A DNA stretch of 34,518 bases. Origin: Syntrophomonadaceae bacterium (lineage in GTDB: Bacteria > Bacillota > Syntrophomonadia > Syntrophomonadales > Syntrophothermaceae). The stretch spans positions 1 to 34,518 of the forward strand of contig JAAYAC010000119.1 of the NCBI GenBank assembly GCA_012719535.1, read 5' to 3'. Within the stretch, counting starts at the first letter, position 1. Every line of letters starts with the position of its first letter. Positions 7,848 through 24,190 of this stretch are shown here, piece by piece. Both the position numbers and the translations under genes were made by a program. Below the pieces are notes generated by a model, which did not search any database, had not been told where the DNA came from, and worked only from the letters and a program-made list of their open reading frames with translations.

Positions 7848-8429
7848 TCATAGGGTAATAACCTTGGGAGCCGCTGCCAGGATCTCCAGGGCAGAATACA
7901 TATTGGTTACTTTTCCGGCCATTAGCTTGTCCTTAACCCGGTAGTAATCGAGGCATGTACCGCAGGACAGCACCTCCACCCCGGAATGCTCCAAGGCCGT
8001 CAGGTACTCCAGCACCTCGGAACCTTCTACCGCCAGAAAGACCCCGGAATTCATAAGGATAACGGTGTTAACCGCCCCTTCTATCTGGGTAAGGGTGTAA
8101 AAAAAGTTCTTAAGCAGCGTCTGCCCCAATTCTTCGCTTCCCTTCCCCAGAACGCTACTGGTAACCAGCAGCACGGTCTGCTCAATCTGGGTAAGCGAGG
8201 CGGCTGGTCCCATCTTGCCTTTTTCAATATGAATGTAGTACTCGCCTGCCTGCTCCTCGACCTCTACCCCGTAGGCCAGACTGCGGGCCAGCCTGACTAT
8301 GTTTTCCAGGGCAGTACGGTCGTCGACCACGGCGGTGACGGTACCATCGGCCAGGCTATCGAGTGCTTGTTTGGTCATAACGACCGGGCTGGGACAGGAA
8401 AGTCCCCGGGCATCCACGAACTTCTCCAC
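7848..8429 (-). CDS. yedF: Selenium-metabolism protein YedF (TusA-like plus DsrE-like)
   Basis: 193 residues. The N-terminal TusA/SirA-like domain carries VDARGLSCPSPVVMTKQAL with the conserved Cys near 12. The C-terminal DsrE-like domain includes VLLVTSSVLGKGSEELGQTL and SCGTCLDYYRV. This two-domain form is the selenium-associated YedF family found next to selD. Its role is thought to be sulfur or selenium relay, but is not proven. Its GTG start directly follows the selD stop codon, so it is translationally coupled. Confidence 0.88.
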   Translation of the reverse strand: MEKFVDARGLSCPSPVVMTKQALDSLADGTVTAVVDDRTALENIVRLARSLAYGVEVEEQAGEYYIHIEKGKMGPAASLTQIEQTVLLVTSSVLGKGSEELGQTLLKNFFYTLTQIEGAVNTVILMNSGVFLAVEGSEVLEYLTALEHSGVEVLSCGTCLDYYRVKDKLMAGKVTNMYSALEILAAAPKVITL

Positions 8430-9500
8430 TCAGCTTCCCCCTTTAACTAGTACCGGGTAAGGCCCAGGTTTTGTCGCCTGTCCTATTATAGCATAGGCGA
8501 CACCGTGTTTCTCCAGCGTCTTCACCAGGGTGTCGCACCGTTCCTCGCTTATGGCCAGCAACAGACCCCCGGAGGTCTCAGGTGAATACATTAAATCCTT
8601 GACAACCGTGTCGATACTTTCAGCAAAAAAGATCCGCTCGCCCAGGTAATCGCGGTTGCTGTAAGCTCCGCCCGGAATCAGACCCCAGGAGGCGCATTCC
8701 CGGGCTTCGCTCATAAAGGAAAGCCGACTGGCATCTATCTCTATCGTTACACCGCTTCCCCGGGCCATCTCGAATAGGTGTCCCAGGAGGCCGAACCCGG
8801 TAACATCTGTGCCGGCACGGACCCCCGCTTCCACCGCCGCATTGCGGGCGGCCTTGTTGAGCATGGACATCCATTTCACCGCTTCGCTGGTGGCACTGGC
8901 TGATGCCATTCCCGCCTTGATAGCGGTAGCAATTATTCCGCTCCCGAGAGGCTTGGTGAGAAGGATTACATCCCCCGGTTGAACCGCATCGTTGCGGATG
9001 AGCCTGGCAGGACTTATTACTCCGGTAACCGCCAGGCCGTATTTGGGCTCGTTGTCGTCAACCGTATGCCCGCCTACCAGCACGGCGCCTGCCTCGCGTA
9101 TTTTATCCAATCCTCCCCGGAGAATTTCCCGGAGGATTCCCTGGTCTTCACAGCTCGGAAAACATACAACATTCATGGCGGTCAGCGGCTGACCCCCCAT
9201 AGCATAGATATCGCTTAACGCGTTGGCCGCAGCCACCTGCCCGAACGTGTAACCATCATCGACCATGGGAGTAAAGAAGTCCACGGTCTGAATTAAGGCC
9301 AGGTCTTCCTGCAGAAGAAAAACCCCGGCATCGTCGAACTTGTCGAAACCTACCAGTAGGCGCGGGTCACTAGGTAACTCCACCCCTTGCAGCAAATCTT
9401 CCAGGACCGCCGGTCCCATTTTGGCTGCTCACCCCGCAGCCCTGACCATTTGGGTCAGCCTGACTCCTGAGTTCACCGGAACCCCCCCTTCCGCTACCAT
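8430..9500 (-). CDS. selD: Selenide, water dikinase, itself a selenoprotein (UGA at 9429-9431 read as Sec)
   Basis: Makes selenophosphate from selenide and ATP, the selenium donor for tRNA-Sec. From the ATG at 9500 the frame gives VRLTQMVRAAG, then TGA, then AAKMGPAVLEDLLQG. The TGA is codon 24 and Lys is codon 27, the same spacing as catalytic Cys17/Lys20 in the E. coli enzyme, so the TGA is the catalytic selenocysteine. Further motifs are TVDFFTPMVDD, ANALSDIYAMGG, GGHTVDDNEPKYGLAVTG, TDVTGFGLLGH and SPETSGGLL. Full length is 356 residues, normal for SelD; a start at the later ATG (9419) would remove the active site. GAGAGGGG lies 9 bases before 9500, three bases after the aminopeptidase stop. 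Operon with yedF. Confidence 0.93.
9389..9431 (-). promoter_or_regulatory. SECIS-like hairpin of selD
   Basis: Directly after the UGA (9431-9429) the mRNA can fold into GGACC-GGC-GGUCC, a perfect 5-bp stem whose loop begins 17 bases after the UGA with G residues. This fits bacterial SECIS rules. Outer pairing of GCAGC with GCUGC and AAA with UUU extends it to about 40 bases. SelB would bind the apical loop. Confidence 0.75.
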
Positions 9501-11827: not shown

Positions 11828-11926
11828 TGGCGGAAGCGTGTGGGAATCGAACCCACCCACCGTGGGACCACCACGGCGCAGACTGGATTTGAAGTCCAGG
11901 CGACCCACCAGGACCGATCCGCTTCC
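11828..11926 (-). tRNA. selC: tRNA-Sec (anticodon TCA)
   Basis: 99 bases including encoded CCA (11830-11828). Acceptor GGAAGCG/CGCTTCC with discriminator G, anticodon stem CTGGA/TCCAG with loop CTTCAAA (anticodon TCA, decodes UGA), a long variable arm CCGTGG/CCACGG and T-arm GTGGG-TTCGATT-CCCAC. Acceptor end, anticodon arm and long variable arm resemble the E. coli selC product. The expected eighth acceptor pair looks like a G-A mismatch. It lies apart from selAB and has its own promoter and terminator. Confidence 0.96.
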
Positions 11927-13013: not shown

Positions 13014-13718
13014 TTACCCTCCCAGGTAGGCTTTCTTCACATCCTCGCTTTCCAGCAGTTCCCGGGCCGATCCCTCCAGGACTATTTCACCGGTTTCTAA
13101 AACATATGCCTTGTTAGCTACCGACAATGCCATATGAGCATTCTGTTCGACCAGCAGTATGGTAGTACCGCGGGCGTTAATATCCTTGATTATTTCAAAT
13201 ATTTCTCTCACCAGAAGGGGAGCCAATCCCATGGAGGGCTCATCCAAGAGCATCAGGCGCGGCCGGGCCATGAGAGCCCTGCCGATAGCCAACATCTGTT
13301 GCTCACCACCGCTCAACGTCCCGGCAACTTGCTTCCTCCGTTCCAACAAGCGTGGAAAGCGGGTAAACACCACCTCAAGGTCCTTCTTTATTCATTCCTT
13401 GTCTTTACGCAGGTAAGCTCCCATCTCCAGGTTTTCCAGGACCGACATGGAAGGAAACACCCGCCGCCCCTCCGGCACCTGCGAGAGGCCCAGCCTGACA
13501 ATCTCCTGGGGTGCTAACCTGGTAATGTCACGACCTTCGAACGTTATCGCTCCTGACCTGGGGCGCAGAATCCCGGAAATGGTCTTCAGAGTGGTGGTCT
13601 TGCCGGCCCCGTTGGCTCCGATCAGGGTCACTATACTACCTTCTTCCACCTGTAGGGATACATTCTTAAGGGCATGAATAGCCCCGTAATAAACATCAAT
13701 CGCCTCGATTCGCAGCAC
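13014..13718 (-). pseudogene. livF: Branched-chain amino acid ABC transporter ATPase LivF, interrupted by in-frame TGA
   Basis: One frame of 235 codons, normal LivF length, broken only by TGA at 13392-13394 (codon 109). Before it: GANGAGKTTTLKTISG (Walker A), Q-loop region LSQVPEGRRVFPSMSV and YLRKDKE. After it: [15 protein letters not shown], the signature [19 protein letters not shown], Walker [14 protein letters not shown] and the His switch LLVEQNAH. Homologs have an ordinary residue, often Gly, at this spot, so a single GGA-to-TGA change is the simplest cause. A selenocysteine reading is possible in principle because the organism decodes UGA, but no good SECIS hairpin follows and LivF needs no redox residue. 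livF abuts livG with no gap. Confidence 0.85.
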
Positions 13719-17718: not shown

Positions 17719-18681
17719 TTATGAGGCTTGTACCTCCCATTTTCCGCATCTATCCCCCCAGCGAGCCAGGAGTTCTCCGTCCTGGTAAAACTGCACGACC
17801 TCGCAGAGGTTGGAACAGCCTTTACACTCAAAACTGGACGTTTTAAAGGTCAAATCCTTGATCTTGAACCCCTTGAATAAGGTGGTCCTTTTCCGGGATA
17901 CGGCGTCGCGGGCCAGCAGGGCCGCGCCAACAGCCCCCATTACATCGTAGTTTTCCGGGACAATTACTTCCTGTCCCAGGTACTTCTCAAAGGCTTTTAC
18001 CAGGCCCAGATTGGCTGCCACTCCTCCTTGAAACAGGATAGGAGCCAGTATTTCCTTCCCCTTACCCACGTTATTCAGGTAATTGCGCACCAGTGCCTCA
18101 CATAACCCGGCTATAATATCCTCTATATTGTAACCTAATTGCTGTTTATGTATCATATCCGATTCTGCAAAAACAGCGCATCTTCCTGCTATGCGCACCG
18201 GGTTTTTCGCCTGTAACGCGATGCTGCCAAACTCCTCAATCGGGATCCGCAGGCGGGCCGCCTGTTGATCCAAAAAAGACCCGGTACCGGCGGCGCATAC
18301 GGTGTTCATGGCAAAATCGATGACCACCCCGTCGCGCAAGATGATTATTTTGGAATCCTGTCCCCCGATCTCAATAATGGTCTGCACCTGGGGGTTTACA
18401 TTCAGCGCCGCCACAGCATGGGCGGTTATCTCGTTTTTAACTATGTCCGCACCAATAATCATGCTACTCAGGTGACGGGCACTTCCAGTGGTCCCCGCCC
18501 CGGCAATTCTTACCTTATCGCCGATCTCCTCTCCGATCTGTTTGATGCCCTTCTGCACCGTTTCGATCGGGCGTCCATCGGTCCGCAGGTAGCGGCGGGC
18601 CAGTATTTTGCCATCGCCATCCACTACCACCACATTGGTGCTGACCGAGCCTACATCTACTCCCAAATAAGCCCCTGTCAT
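17719..18681 (-). CDS. Acyl-CoA dehydratase activase (HgdC/BcrA-like Fe-S ATPase)
   Basis: 320 residues of the ASKHA ATPase class that use ATP to push an electron from a [4Fe-4S] cluster into a partner Fe-S enzyme. Motifs: LGVDVGSVSTNVVVVDG (phosphate 1), IIEIGGQDSKIIIL, NTVCAAGTGSFLDQQ and AGRCAVFAESDMI (cluster Cys), and LFQGGVAANLGLVKAF (adenosine). A C-terminal extension of about 50 residues adds FECKGCSNLCEV and GDRCGKWE, a further four-Cys set seen in large fused activase-related proteins. It overlaps the upstream gene by 4 bases (ATGA), so the three genes from 20769 down form one unit. Confidence 0.88.
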   Translation of the reverse strand: MTGAYLGVDVGSVSTNVVVVDGDGKILARRYLRTDGRPIETVQKGIKQIGEEIGDKVRIAGAGTTGSARHLSSMIIGADIVKNEITAHAVAALNVNPQVQTIIEIGGQDSKIIILRDGVVIDFAMNTVCAAGTGSFLDQQAARLRIPIEEFGSIALQAKNPVRIAGRCAVFAESDMIHKQQLGYNIEDIIAGLCEALVRNYLNNVGKGKEILAPILFQGGVAANLGLVKAFEKYLGQEVIVPENYDVMGAVGAALLARDAVSRKRTTLFKGFKIKDLTFKTSSFECKGCSNLCEVVQFYQDGELLARWGDRCGKWEVQAS

Positions 18682-19781
18682 ACCACTAACCTACCCCGTC
18701 CTTTTCTCTTTCTCTCCCGCCTTTTTTCCAACAAATCGATGAAGGCCTCGATGCGGGTCTGCACCCCGGCTTTGCCCGTCTGTTCATCAATAAACAAGGT
18801 AAGAACCGGTATATCGAGTTCCCGGCTAATCCGGGGAATGATGCTCTTGGCCACAATTTCCGGAATACACGCGAACGGTGCTAGCTGTACGACCCCGTCA
18901 AAGCCGTGTTTAGCGTACAGAACCGTTTCCCCAACACTGTTTACCCCGTGCCCACCAATGGGAGCTTCATTCAGATACGGCCGGGCCATGGCAAACACAT
19001 CGTCCTCAGGCGTTACTATGGTATTACGCCCGCAGTAGCCAGTAAGGTATATGGACCGGTCCACGCTAACTCCCATCTCCCCCAGCATGATCTGGAGGTA
19101 ATGGTTGGCGGAGGGTTCCAGTACGACATATATTTCCCCAATGATTCCTACCCTCAGGGGGTCACGTGTTTCGTCCCGGGTTACGAGGTTGAGTAGCCTG
19201 GCGCCTTCATCGCGAGCCGCAGCGATGTCTGCCACTGTACACGCTTGATCCAACATCTCCAGAGCCTTCCACAAGGTACGAGTAGTCTCCCCCCGTACAA
19301 CCTCGTAAGGCCGTACGTGAAAAGAAAGCTGCTCCAGGTCATCTATGGCTTTCAACTTCTCCCAGGCAACCTGCAATACCCTGACGAACTCTTTATACGA
19401 TACCCCCCCGCTCTTCCACACCAGCTTCAGCTTTTTCCAGAAGTCCCTTAAATCATGCAAGGGAGGTTCAAATCCGATTATATTCATTTCAATGCCCAGT
19501 TCCTTCAGTATTTGCTGGTGCATAATCCAGTAATAACCTGCCCGGCACGGGCCAACCCCTCCGGAGGTAATAATCGTATCGGCGCCCATCTCAGCTACCT
19601 CCAGGTAGGTCCCCATAAGTATCTTAAATGGTATGCACGCAAATTCGGGTGAGTATCTAACCCCCAAATCCAGGGTTTTCTTACTGGGCTCCGGGGGTAC
19701 AACACAATCATGTCCAATGTTTTCCACCAGGTACTTAAAGGCTATGTACGAATACCCCATGCGGGGAAAGCTAATTCTCAT
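18678..19781 (-). CDS. HgdB-like Fe-S protein, activase-associated (COG3581 type)
   Basis: 367 residues. Conserved blocks are MGYSYIAFKYLVENIGHD, SPEFACIPFKILMGTYLE, ITSGGVGPCRAGYYW, YCGRNTIVTPEDD, QLAPFACIPEIVAKS and FIDEQTGKAGVQTRIEAFID. The Cys in CIPFK, GPC and FACIPE are likely Fe-S ligands. The family matches the C-terminal part of giant acyl-CoA dehydratase activase-related proteins. It would be reduced by the adjacent activase; the substrate is unknown and no CoA-transferase or dehydratase pathway gene is nearby. It overlaps the preceding gene by 11 bases. Confidence 0.8.
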   Translation of the reverse strand: MRISFPRMGYSYIAFKYLVENIGHDCVVPPEPSKKTLDLGVRYSPEFACIPFKILMGTYLEVAEMGADTIITSGGVGPCRAGYYWIMHQQILKELGIEMNIIGFEPPLHDLRDFWKKLKLVWKSGGVSYKEFVRVLQVAWEKLKAIDDLEQLSFHVRPYEVVRGETTRTLWKALEMLDQACTVADIAAARDEGARLLNLVTRDETRDPLRVGIIGEIYVVLEPSANHYLQIMLGEMGVSVDRSIYLTGYCGRNTIVTPEDDVFAMARPYLNEAPIGGHGVNSVGETVLYAKHGFDGVVQLAPFACIPEIVAKSIIPRISRELDIPVLTLFIDEQTGKAGVQTRIEAFIDLLEKRRERKRKGRGRLVV

Positions 19782-20769
19782 GCTTTTGCCTCCGGTAACG
19801 CAACATATCGAGAAATGCTTCCACTCTGGTTCTTATACCTGCCTCACCAGTATGTTCGTCTACCATAATAGACATAAAAGGAATTCCACCCTGTTGCTTA
19901 GCCTGCAACTCCATCATGCGGTCCACCATCGAATCAGGACCACAGGCAAAGGCGGTCACGTGAATGATGCCGTCGATGTATTTCTGCGCCATAAAATAAA
20001 GGGCTCCGTGCAAAGCTCGGTTGGAAAAGTACCAGAACATGTTCTTCGGAAGCTTCCTGGCCTCGGCTGCCATCTTGCGGGCCGGCAACATCTCCTGGGT
20101 GTAGACCCGGGCATTTTCCCGCTCCAGCAGCCCGAACAATCCCACGTTGACGAACGGATCATAAACTACATAAGGATAGCCAACCACCGCAACACTGAAC
20201 TCCGGCGTACCCTGGTTCACACTTGGGAGGGTACCGCCGAAAACCGCCTCTATAGCTTGCTCGGGGAGCACCCCCTGGTACAGTAGCCGCTGAAACCTCT
20301 CTTGCCTTCGTTTAGCCTGGGCGACCGCACGGCGAATATCACTCCGGGCCGCTCCCAACATCTCACCGATATCCCGGCAGACGCGAAATAGTTCCTGCCT
20401 ACCCTGGCGCAGGTCGACTCTGGTGTCTATGAGCGGGGGAAGGTCATCAATGGACGCCCGTAGCATGTCCGGAAGGCCCAGGAACTTCGGGCACAGGGTC
20501 TCAGTACCGAACTCCCCGAATTTCCGCAGTGAAACCAGGCGGGGAGTAAAGACATAATCAACCTTACCGATAAGGTCGGCAACATGCCCGTGGTAAAGCT
20601 TTATGGGGATGCAGGCGTCATTTACCGCTTCTTTGACCCCTTTGTCCAGTATCGCCTTGCTGGTTGGAGAGGAAACCACCACATTGTGCCCCAGTGAAGC
20701 AAAGAATTCTCTCCAGAACGGGAAGTATATGAAGTAAGCTAGTGTTCTTGGTATACCGATTGTGGCCAC
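19771..20769 (-). CDS. HgdB-like Fe-S protein, activase-associated (DUF2229/COG3580 type)
   Basis: About 332 residues from the GTG at 20769, chosen because AGGAGG lies 5 bases upstream; an in-frame ATG at 20826 has no good site. Blocks: IGIPRTLAYFIYFPFWREFF, NDACIPIKLYHGH, LVSLRKFGEFGTETLCPKFLG, HVTAFACGPDSMVD and MVDEHTGEAGIRTRVEAFLD. Cys in DACIP, TLCPK and FACGPDS are likely cluster ligands. The shared C-terminal D(E)xTG(K/E)AG(V/I)xTRxEAF motif shows it is a distant paralog of the next gene, suggesting a heterodimer. First gene of the trio. Confidence 0.8.
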   Translation of the reverse strand: MATIGIPRTLAYFIYFPFWREFFASLGHNVVVSSPTSKAILDKGVKEAVNDACIPIKLYHGHVADLIGKVDYVFTPRLVSLRKFGEFGTETLCPKFLGLPDMLRASIDDLPPLIDTRVDLRQGRQELFRVCRDIGEMLGAARSDIRRAVAQAKRRQERFQRLLYQGVLPEQAIEAVFGGTLPSVNQGTPEFSVAVVGYPYVVYDPFVNVGLFGLLERENARVYTQEMLPARKMAAEARKLPKNMFWYFSNRALHGALYFMAQKYIDGIIHVTAFACGPDSMVDRMMELQAKQQGGIPFMSIMVDEHTGEAGIRTRVEAFLDMLRYRRQKHEN

Positions 20770-20867
20770 GTTCTCCTCCTGAATCTCCCCACATGTTACA
20801 TGATGATTGTACCTAAAAAGATACATTTCGACGTTAAGGGTACAAGTTCCTTTCCCGCCGCATCAAA

Positions 20868-22784
20868 TTACCCCTGGCCAAATTTTACCCTTACATCCCC
20901 CACTCTTTTCGTAAGGCGGAGACGGTCATAATACTCCATTAGCGGCAAGGTGTACCGCCGAGAGCTGTCAAAAAGGTCACGGGCAGTAGCCAAGGTTAGC
21001 TCTTTTTCGTTCTTAAAGTAGCCTTCCAGGAGTTTCTTGCCCTGCTCAATTGCCTCTGCCGTAAAGTAGGCATTTTCCGCCACTTTTACCAGCTGGCCGC
21101 TCTCCAAAAGGAAGTTTAAAATTTCATTCAGGGCTTCGCCGGTTAAACCGGTTTTTTCCGAGATTTCTTTCGGTCCGGGCGGAGCGAAAGGCTGCCGGGC
21201 AAATTCCAGCAGCAAGTGGTCGATGACTCGCTGCTGGCGTGAATCGGGGCTGGGTTGATATCCGGGCAGGGCCACATGGTTTACCCCGGTGTTAATAGCC
21301 CCGCGCTTTTCCAAGAGTTGCAGCAGGGCAGCACTGACCTTGGGGGAGAAGCTTTTCAGATGCTTGCTACGCAGTTCTTCCCGGGGGTAGCCCCGCCGGA
21401 GAGGAAAACGGCTATGGTAGTCGTTCAATATCGCTTGCAGCCGTGATTCAATTTGCTGTAGCCCGTACCCGCTCAAGAAATAGTCACGTCCCTCTACCTG
21501 GAACCTTTCCACTTCCCCGCTTTCTATTAAACCCGCCAGTTCGGTAAGCAGTTTCTCCTCTTCGGCTCCTACCGCACGGGCCAGGTCCTGCACGGTACAT
21601 ACCGCTTCCGGGTGCCCTTCCAGTTCCTGCAGGATGATATCCGCCAGGGTTCCCTCTTCCTTGACTGCCAGACCGGCAAGTACCTCTTCCTTAAACCTCT
21701 TCTGTTTGGGAGGATGAGCGTCGATGACTTTACCCCCCCCGATGGTGGTAACCGGGGAATAGAAACGGATAACAAACCGGTCATTCTTATATGCGACCAC
21801 CGGTTTCTCCATCACAATCTGAGCATAAGCCTCCTCTCCAGGAAGCAGTTCATCCCGGTCCAGTAATATTACCCGCCCCAAGCTTTCATCTGTACCCAGG
21901 TGGAAACGGATACGGGTCCAGTTCTTCACCGTCCGGGGACTGGAGCTCAACAGGCGCAGGGCAGTGTCTAGCCGGTACGAGGGGCTTAGATAGCCTGGTG
22001 TAGCGAGGACAAAACCGCGCTCCACTTCTTCCACATCCACCCCTTGAAGGTTGACCGCCACCCGCTGCCCCGCCCGGGCGGCTTCCATCTTTTCGCCATG
22101 CACCTGCAGGCCGCGTACGCGTACCTGCTTTTCCGTCGGCAGGAGTTCCAGAGTATCCCCAATATTGATAACCCCTGACCAGAGAGTTCCGGTAACAATG
22201 GTTCCGAAGCCGGTCATAGTAAAAACCCGGTCAATAGGCAGCCGGGCTTTGCCAAACGCCGGCTTTTCCTCGGCTTCCCCCGCCATTTCCTGCAGGATGG
22301 CCAGCAGGTCAGTAATGCCTTCTCCCGTGACTGCCGATACGGGGACCACGGGAGCATTTTTCAAGATTGTTTTCCGGAGGTATTCTGTAACTTCTTCCTC
22401 CACCAGCAATAACCAATCTTCCTCAACCATGTCCTTCTTGGTAATCGCCACCACTCCCCGGTTAACCCCCAGCAGCTCGATTATATCGACATGCTCCCGA
22501 GTTTGGGGCATTACCCCTTCGTCTGCCGCTATCACCAGGATTACCATATCCATCCCGGAGGCCCCGGCCAGCATGTGACGGATAAATCTTTCATGGCCCG
22601 GCACGTCAACGATGCCGGCTCTCTGCCCATTGGGGAACGTGAGCGGGGCGAACCCCAACTCGATGGAGATTCCGCGTTGTCTTTCCTCCTTCAAGCGATC
22701 GGTATCAACTCCGGTCAAGGCCTTAACCAAGGTGGTCTTACCATGGTCTATGTGTCCTGCCGTTCCAATAATAACCCTCTTCAC
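20868..22784 (-). CDS. selB: Selenocysteine-specific elongation factor SelB
   Basis: 638 residues. Brings Sec-tRNA-Sec to the ribosome at UGA codons followed by a SECIS. The N-terminal GTPase domain has [13 protein letters not shown] (G1), [16 protein letters not shown] (G3) and AITKKDM (G4), then EF-Tu-like domains 2-3 ([26 protein letters not shown]). The C-terminal half from about 380 has the repeated winged-helix modules that bind the SECIS loop. GTG start overlapping the selA stop by 4 bases. The length matches full-size clostridial SelB. Confidence 0.96.
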
Positions 22785-24190
22785 TCGTCATTCCCTCCCA
22801 GAACATCCACAAGGCGGGTGACTAGCAACTGTTCGTCGTCGTTGCGCAGAGTTCTCACACTTATTATCATATGATTATCCTGCAACCGGGTCAGAACCGC
22901 GGGTTCTCCAATCCTCAGGTTCCGGGCCACCCTGCTGAGAATATCCCCACTGAAACTTATCTCTACCCCATACCCGGGTAAGTTGTGGATGGGGTAGGCG
23001 CCTCCACCGACGCGGTCCTCGGTTTCCACGACCCGAATGAATTTTACCCGCGGCTCAGGCCCCAGGGCCGCTTCCAGGGCACCGCATAGCCGGGTAGCCC
23101 TGGCCGCCAGCTCCTCCGGACTGGCAGTCAACATGGCCAGTACGGGAATCTGCTTCCGGGGCTCACCGTTCAGGTATTCCAGCAATGTTCCCTCCAGGGC
23201 CGCTATGGTAAGCTTGTCTACCCGCAGGGCCCGGGTAAGTTGGTTTCGCTTCATTCTTTCTACTAGCTCCGCCCGCCCGACAATAATGCCAGCCTGGGGT
23301 CCGCCCAGAAGTTTATCCCCACTGAAGGTCACTACATCCACGCCTTGCCTGACGCACTCCTGAACCGTCGGTTCCCCGGCAAGCCCCCAGGAAGACAGGT
23401 CATACAACACGCCACTCCCCAGGTCCTGCATTACCGGCAGGCCGGTACTTCTTCCCAGGCTTACCATTTCGGCCAGGGGGACTTCCTCGGTAAAGCCAAC
23501 TATGCGGTAGTTTGAGGTATGCACCGCCAGCAGGAGGGCTGTCTCCGTTGTCAAGGCCTGTTCAAAATCACGCCGGTAGGTTTTGTTGGTGGTACCCACC
23601 TCCACCAACCGGGCTCCACTGCTGCGCATAACCTCGGGAACGCGGAAAGCCCCCCCTATTTCCACAAGCTGCCCCCGGGACACAATCACTTCCCGCCCTG
23701 AAGCCAGGGTGTTCAATGCCAGGAGAACGGCGGCCGCGTTATTGTTGACCACGAGCGCCGCTTCCGCCCCGGTAAGCGTCTTAAGCAGGTCCTCAACGTG
23801 AGAATACCGAGAGCCTCTCTCCCCTTTATCGAGGTCAATCTCCAGGTTGGTATAGCTGGAGGCCACTTCATTAACGTAACGTATGGCTGCCGGCGATAAC
23901 ACCGCGCGGCCAAGGTTGGTGTGCAGTACCACACCCGTGGCGTTTATCACCTTGCGGAGTGTTCCCCGGGTGCAATGGTACAAACGAGCGCTCAGCTGGT
24001 TGATGATACGGGTGGTAATCTCCGAGCGGGTCAGATCTTCATCGCTGTTTTTAAGAAGGTCTCTCAGGCCGGCAACCACCTCACGGGCTTTATTTACCAC
24101 GAGGTCGCGCGCATACCGGCTGATAAGCGTTTTAACCCGCTCATCGGCTAGCAGCTCATCTATGGCCGGAATATTCCGCAGGCTCTTCAT
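22781..24190 (-). CDS. selA: L-seryl-tRNA(Sec) selenium transferase
   Basis: 469 residues. A PLP enzyme converting Ser-tRNA-Sec to Sec-tRNA-Sec with selenophosphate. It shows the N-terminal tRNA-binding helical domain (RNIPAIDELLAD), INATGVVLHTNLGRA, NNNAAAVLL and the PLP-lysine motif TFSGDKLLGGPQAG with Lys293. The C-terminal domain ends with ISVRTL and VDVLGG. GAAGGAGGGG lies 6 bases upstream of the ATG. It starts 3 bases after the YkvI-like gene stops, so all three are likely co-transcribed. Confidence 0.96.
   Translation of the reverse strand: MKSLRNIPAIDELLADERVKTLISRYARDLVVNKAREVVAGLRDLLKNSDEDLTRSEITTRIINQLSARLYHCTRGTLRKVINATGVVLHTNLGRAVLSPAAIRYVNEVASSYTNLEIDLDKGERGSRYSHVEDLLKTLTGAEAALVVNNNAAAVLLALNTLASGREVIVSRGQLVEIGGAFRVPEVMRSSGARLVEVGTTNKTYRRDFEQALTTETALLLAVHTSNYRIVGFTEEVPLAEMVSLGRSTGLPVMQDLGSGVLYDLSSWGLAGEPTVQECVRQGVDVVTFSGDKLLGGPQAGIIVGRAELVERMKRNQLTRALRVDKLTIAALEGTLLEYLNGEPRKQIPVLAMLTASPEELAARATRLCGALEAALGPEPRVKFIRVVETEDRVGGGAYPIHNLPGYGVEISFSGDILSRVARNLRIGEPAVLTRLQDNHMIISVRTLRNDDEQLLVTRLVDVLGGNDE

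Follow-up and report, generated by a model that had tools for sequence, protein, structure and literature searches.

The selD gene described here belongs to a selenocysteine-decoding bacterium of the Syntrophomonadales, and it carries an internal UGA that is most probably read as selenocysteine (Sec) with the help of SelB, tRNA-Sec and a hairpin in the mRNA, so as to give a full-length SelD; we put the probability of this reading at about 0.96. The window, by which we mean the whole stretch of DNA that was analysed (34,518 nt), holds selD on the minus strand. Between 9500 and 8430 its frame is interrupted only by one TGA, at 9431-9429, and the peptide across this codon is ...RLTQMVRAAG-U-AAK-MGPAVLEDLL... 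The TGA occupies the catalytic Cys/Sec position of SelD, and the AAA codon of the catalytic lysine lies three codons 3′ of it (9420-9422, minus strand).

It is useful to ask where translation of selD begins. The original prediction gave the frame with its single TGA correctly and let it start at the in-frame upstream ATG at 9500, which would yield 356 amino acids. The GTG at 9476 is the more likely start, because it has the better ribosome-binding site (GGAAGGGGGGG, with a spacing of 5 nt) and stands at the same distance from the RLT motif as in a related gene (locus L004), where a GTG at the equivalent place is preceded by GGGAGGGGG. Five residues separate GTG 9476 from RLT, and in most order-mates SelD starts about four to eight residues ahead of this motif, also with a good ribosome-binding site. 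Started at this GTG, the recoded gene would occupy positions 8430-9476, with its stop codon TGA at 8432-8430, and code for 348 amino acids. The conventional open reading frame covers only 8430-9419 (329 amino acids), since its ATG at 9419 lies directly past the active-site loop. Such a call contains neither the catalytic Sec/Cys nor the lysine, just as had been predicted, and in this respect the gene is mainly an annotation matter: automatic calls would leave out the enzyme's active site.

The recoded product was identified as SelD by the TIGR00476 model over its whole length (E = 2.5e-112; 375.1 bits against a cut-off of 125). In alignments with two SelD structures the TGA falls on the cysteine of 2yye (SSGCAAKVG) and of 3u0o (GAGCGCKIS), and the lysine follows three residues on in both. 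The segment U24-AAK27 of the N-terminal glycine-rich loop thus has the same layout as in these structures, in agreement with the original assignment of the TGA to exactly this site, and its first residue would have the catalytic role. The E. coli enzyme (PDB 3u0o) shares the fold family and the catalytic position with the window SelD, but it has a Cys codon where the window gene has UGA.

The codon at this site is strongly conserved. Among 81 related genes with a readable site (the window copy included), 75 have TGA, four TGC and two TGT, and no codon other than those for Sec or Cys occurs there. All order-mates with a readable site have TGA, and each of the four genomes of the family, our own among them, codes for a SelD with an in-frame TGA. 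A search at the class level returned 63 genomes, all from the order itself; SelD was found in 59 of them, nearly always with the internal TGA. The matched relatives (records of Syntrophomonadaceae, Thermosyntropha and Syntrophomonas) are about 53-67% identical to the window SelD. Because of this conservation a chance TGA at the site is excluded. An apparent loss of the codon in two order-mates (G015 and G011) was rejected, as the TGA is readable there, either next to a gap in the assembly or beyond the aligned stretch, and two partial SelD matches (G016 and G061) cover stretches that do not include the site.

Directly 3′ of the UGA lies a bSECIS-like hairpin (9403-9417, minus strand) with a 6-bp stem GGGACC/GGUCCU, a GGC loop at a distance of 17 nt from the UGA, and an energy of -8.2 kcal/mol. 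The published description of bSECIS elements (PMC13188914) specifies a loop of 3-9 nt, a stem of 4-16 bp, G in the first two loop positions, a distance of 16-37 nt from the UGA and an energy at or below -7.5 kcal/mol, and the selD hairpin falls within every one of these limits. It shares with the bSECIS of bacterial selenoprotein mRNAs the position, the size, the G in the first loop positions and an energy below -7.5 kcal/mol; it differs in that its stem is short and that the pairing register shifts by one between species of the order. Taken singly, the hairpin of the window is only moderately stronger than expected by chance, as 6 of 200 synonymous recodings and 15 of 200 dinucleotide shuffles were equally stable, and for this reason the case for it rests on the relatives.

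In 82 distinct Sec selD genes the same stretch folds with a mean of -7.8 kcal/mol versus -3.9 kcal/mol for synonymous recodings; the values for six Cys selD genes are -3.1 and -3.6 kcal/mol, respectively, and one of the six folds well. If the UGA is counted as codon 1, then codon 6 is a mostly synonymous Gly position, and across 38 distinct sequences of the order its third base tracks the residue and codon at position 9, three codons later. The pairs found are GGT-ACC (16), GGG-GCC (14), GGA-GTC (2) and AGT-GAC (1), while GGG-ACC (two) and GAT-GCC (one) are exceptions to the main pairing. A Fisher test on the two main classes gave p = 5e-7, a value that takes no account of phylogeny among these related sequences. 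Relative to one another, the GGT-ACC and GGG-GCC types of related species are shifted by one base in their pairing register. This pattern indicates that the selD hairpin of the Syntrophomonadales is kept across relatives by matched codon changes. A Cys codon in close relatives, together with the lack of a SECIS, had been named beforehand as evidence against a selenoprotein; the order-mates in which the site is readable have TGA, and the hairpin is present.

The machinery for decoding lies entirely inside the window on the minus strand: selA, L-seryl-tRNA(Sec) selenium transferase (22781-24190; TIGR00474, 593 bits), selB, the Sec-specific elongation factor (20868-22784; TIGR00475, 370.8 bits), and selC, the tRNA-Sec with anticodon TCA (11828-11926; RF01852, 73.2 bits). 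Together with the hairpin and the further selenoprotein genes of the genome, these genes support the original proposal that SelD is a selenoprotein with UGA as its active-site codon. In the predicted sequence of events, SelB and tRNA-Sec, with the hairpin just 3′, would decode the UGA at 9431-9429 as Sec, and the resulting selenide, water dikinase would be full-length and carry Sec in the N-terminal loop that binds selenium. Its selenophosphate would supply SelA and through it the Sec of SelD itself, of the formate dehydrogenases and of other proteins, and also the tRNA 2-selenouridine synthase, whose gene is present in the same genome.

Family searches, which give a lower bound, found, besides selD, at least five genes whose in-frame TGA occupies a known or typical selenoprotein site (loci L130, L137, L127 and L128). 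These code for two FdhA proteins (CARL-U-HSVTVAG on contig C32 and QARI-U-HSATVAG on C39), FlpD (SG-U-HPGDCHY) and an HdrA-like protein (CSA-U-ISTPKM), both on C110, and a TlpA-like protein (FSTG-U-PAC on C175). Their presence rules out a "selfish" Sec system in which SelD would be the sole selenoprotein. Extension of all main open reading frames of the window past TGA codons, in both directions, revealed no further hidden selenoprotein gene with the codon at a Cys site; it was plausible just for selD, for the junction of selD with yedF, and for a livF-like gene. The latter (13014-13718, minus strand) codes for a branched-chain amino acid ABC transporter ATPase and has an in-frame TGA at 13394-13392, codon 109. 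This is no Cys site, and an 85% identical gene of the family member G003 has GGT (Gly) there; the TGA probably stems from a nonsense mutation or from an error in sequencing.

How else could the TGA of selD be understood? It might be a true stop, the product being a shorter protein from ATG 9419, either non-catalytic or a SelD that works differently. The frame from this ATG is intact and is the one that a standard caller picks, but the protein would be without the catalytic Sec/Cys and lysine, and the ATG has no ribosome-binding site at the usual spacing upstream. Moreover, nearly all relatives conserve the protein sequence RLTQMVRAAG that is encoded ahead of the TGA, and searches of the genome for a second SelD found none, despite the demand for selenophosphate from SelA and several selenoprotein genes. 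We regard a true stop as very unlikely.

The odd TGA of the livF-like gene in the same window might suggest that the selD codon, too, arose from a Cys codon (TGT or TGC), either by nonsense mutation or through an error in sequencing. This is refuted by the same TGA in the 75 related genes, which come nearly all from independent assemblies, isolates among them, and such an origin is scarcely conceivable. That another, near-cognate tRNA reads the UGA and inserts, say, Trp or Cys is extremely improbable given the full Sec machinery in the window, the SECIS-like hairpin that is missing from all but one of the tested Cys genes, and a site that alternates exclusively between Sec and Cys. The residue at the TGA is thus very probably selenocysteine.

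A Sec-containing SelD is not the rarity that had been implied at the outset. FdhA and SelD are described as the most widespread bacterial selenoproteins (PMC1794560), and in a prokaryote reference set 19% of the SelD genes were found to have Sec, in every case at this position (PMC4561486). SelD is also listed among the ten selenoproteins of Syntrophomonas wolfei (PMC1794560, Table 3); that protein agrees with the window SelD in family, residue, position and bacterial order, and between the two there is no difference of substance. That SelD is needed for its own Sec is a correct statement with a long history of discussion: Guimaraes et al. 1996, as listed among the references of PMC10778597, carries the question in its title. 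In view of this published status the finding is therefore correct but ordinary: the window gene codes for a kind of SelD that is both common and well known and that occurs throughout the order of the organism. It adds a clean example of an enzyme that, as a selenoprotein, would supply its own selenium donor, and an order-wide set of sequences in which a recoding hairpin is preserved through matched codon choices.

The gene directly 3′ of selD is yedF (7848-8429, minus strand), which codes for a sulfurtransferase-like selenium metabolism protein (TIGR03527, 206.9 bits). The stop TGA of selD (8432-8430) is followed at once by the in-frame GTG of yedF (8432-8427 together), an arrangement not conserved in relatives. 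Occasional readthrough of this stop, which would fuse SelD to YedF and add a second recoded residue, was considered and rejected as most improbable: the stop is TAG in G003, and in G001 yedF lies in another frame. The TusA-like CPxP motif of the window yedF has retained its Cys. In two family members with yedF after selD (loci L085 and L084) this Cys is replaced by Ser (G001) or the domain is partly lost (G003). Directly downstream of selB, the stretch 17719-20826 (minus strand) holds a gene for an acyl-CoA dehydratase activase and two genes resembling those of 2-hydroxyacyl-CoA dehydratase-type proteins.
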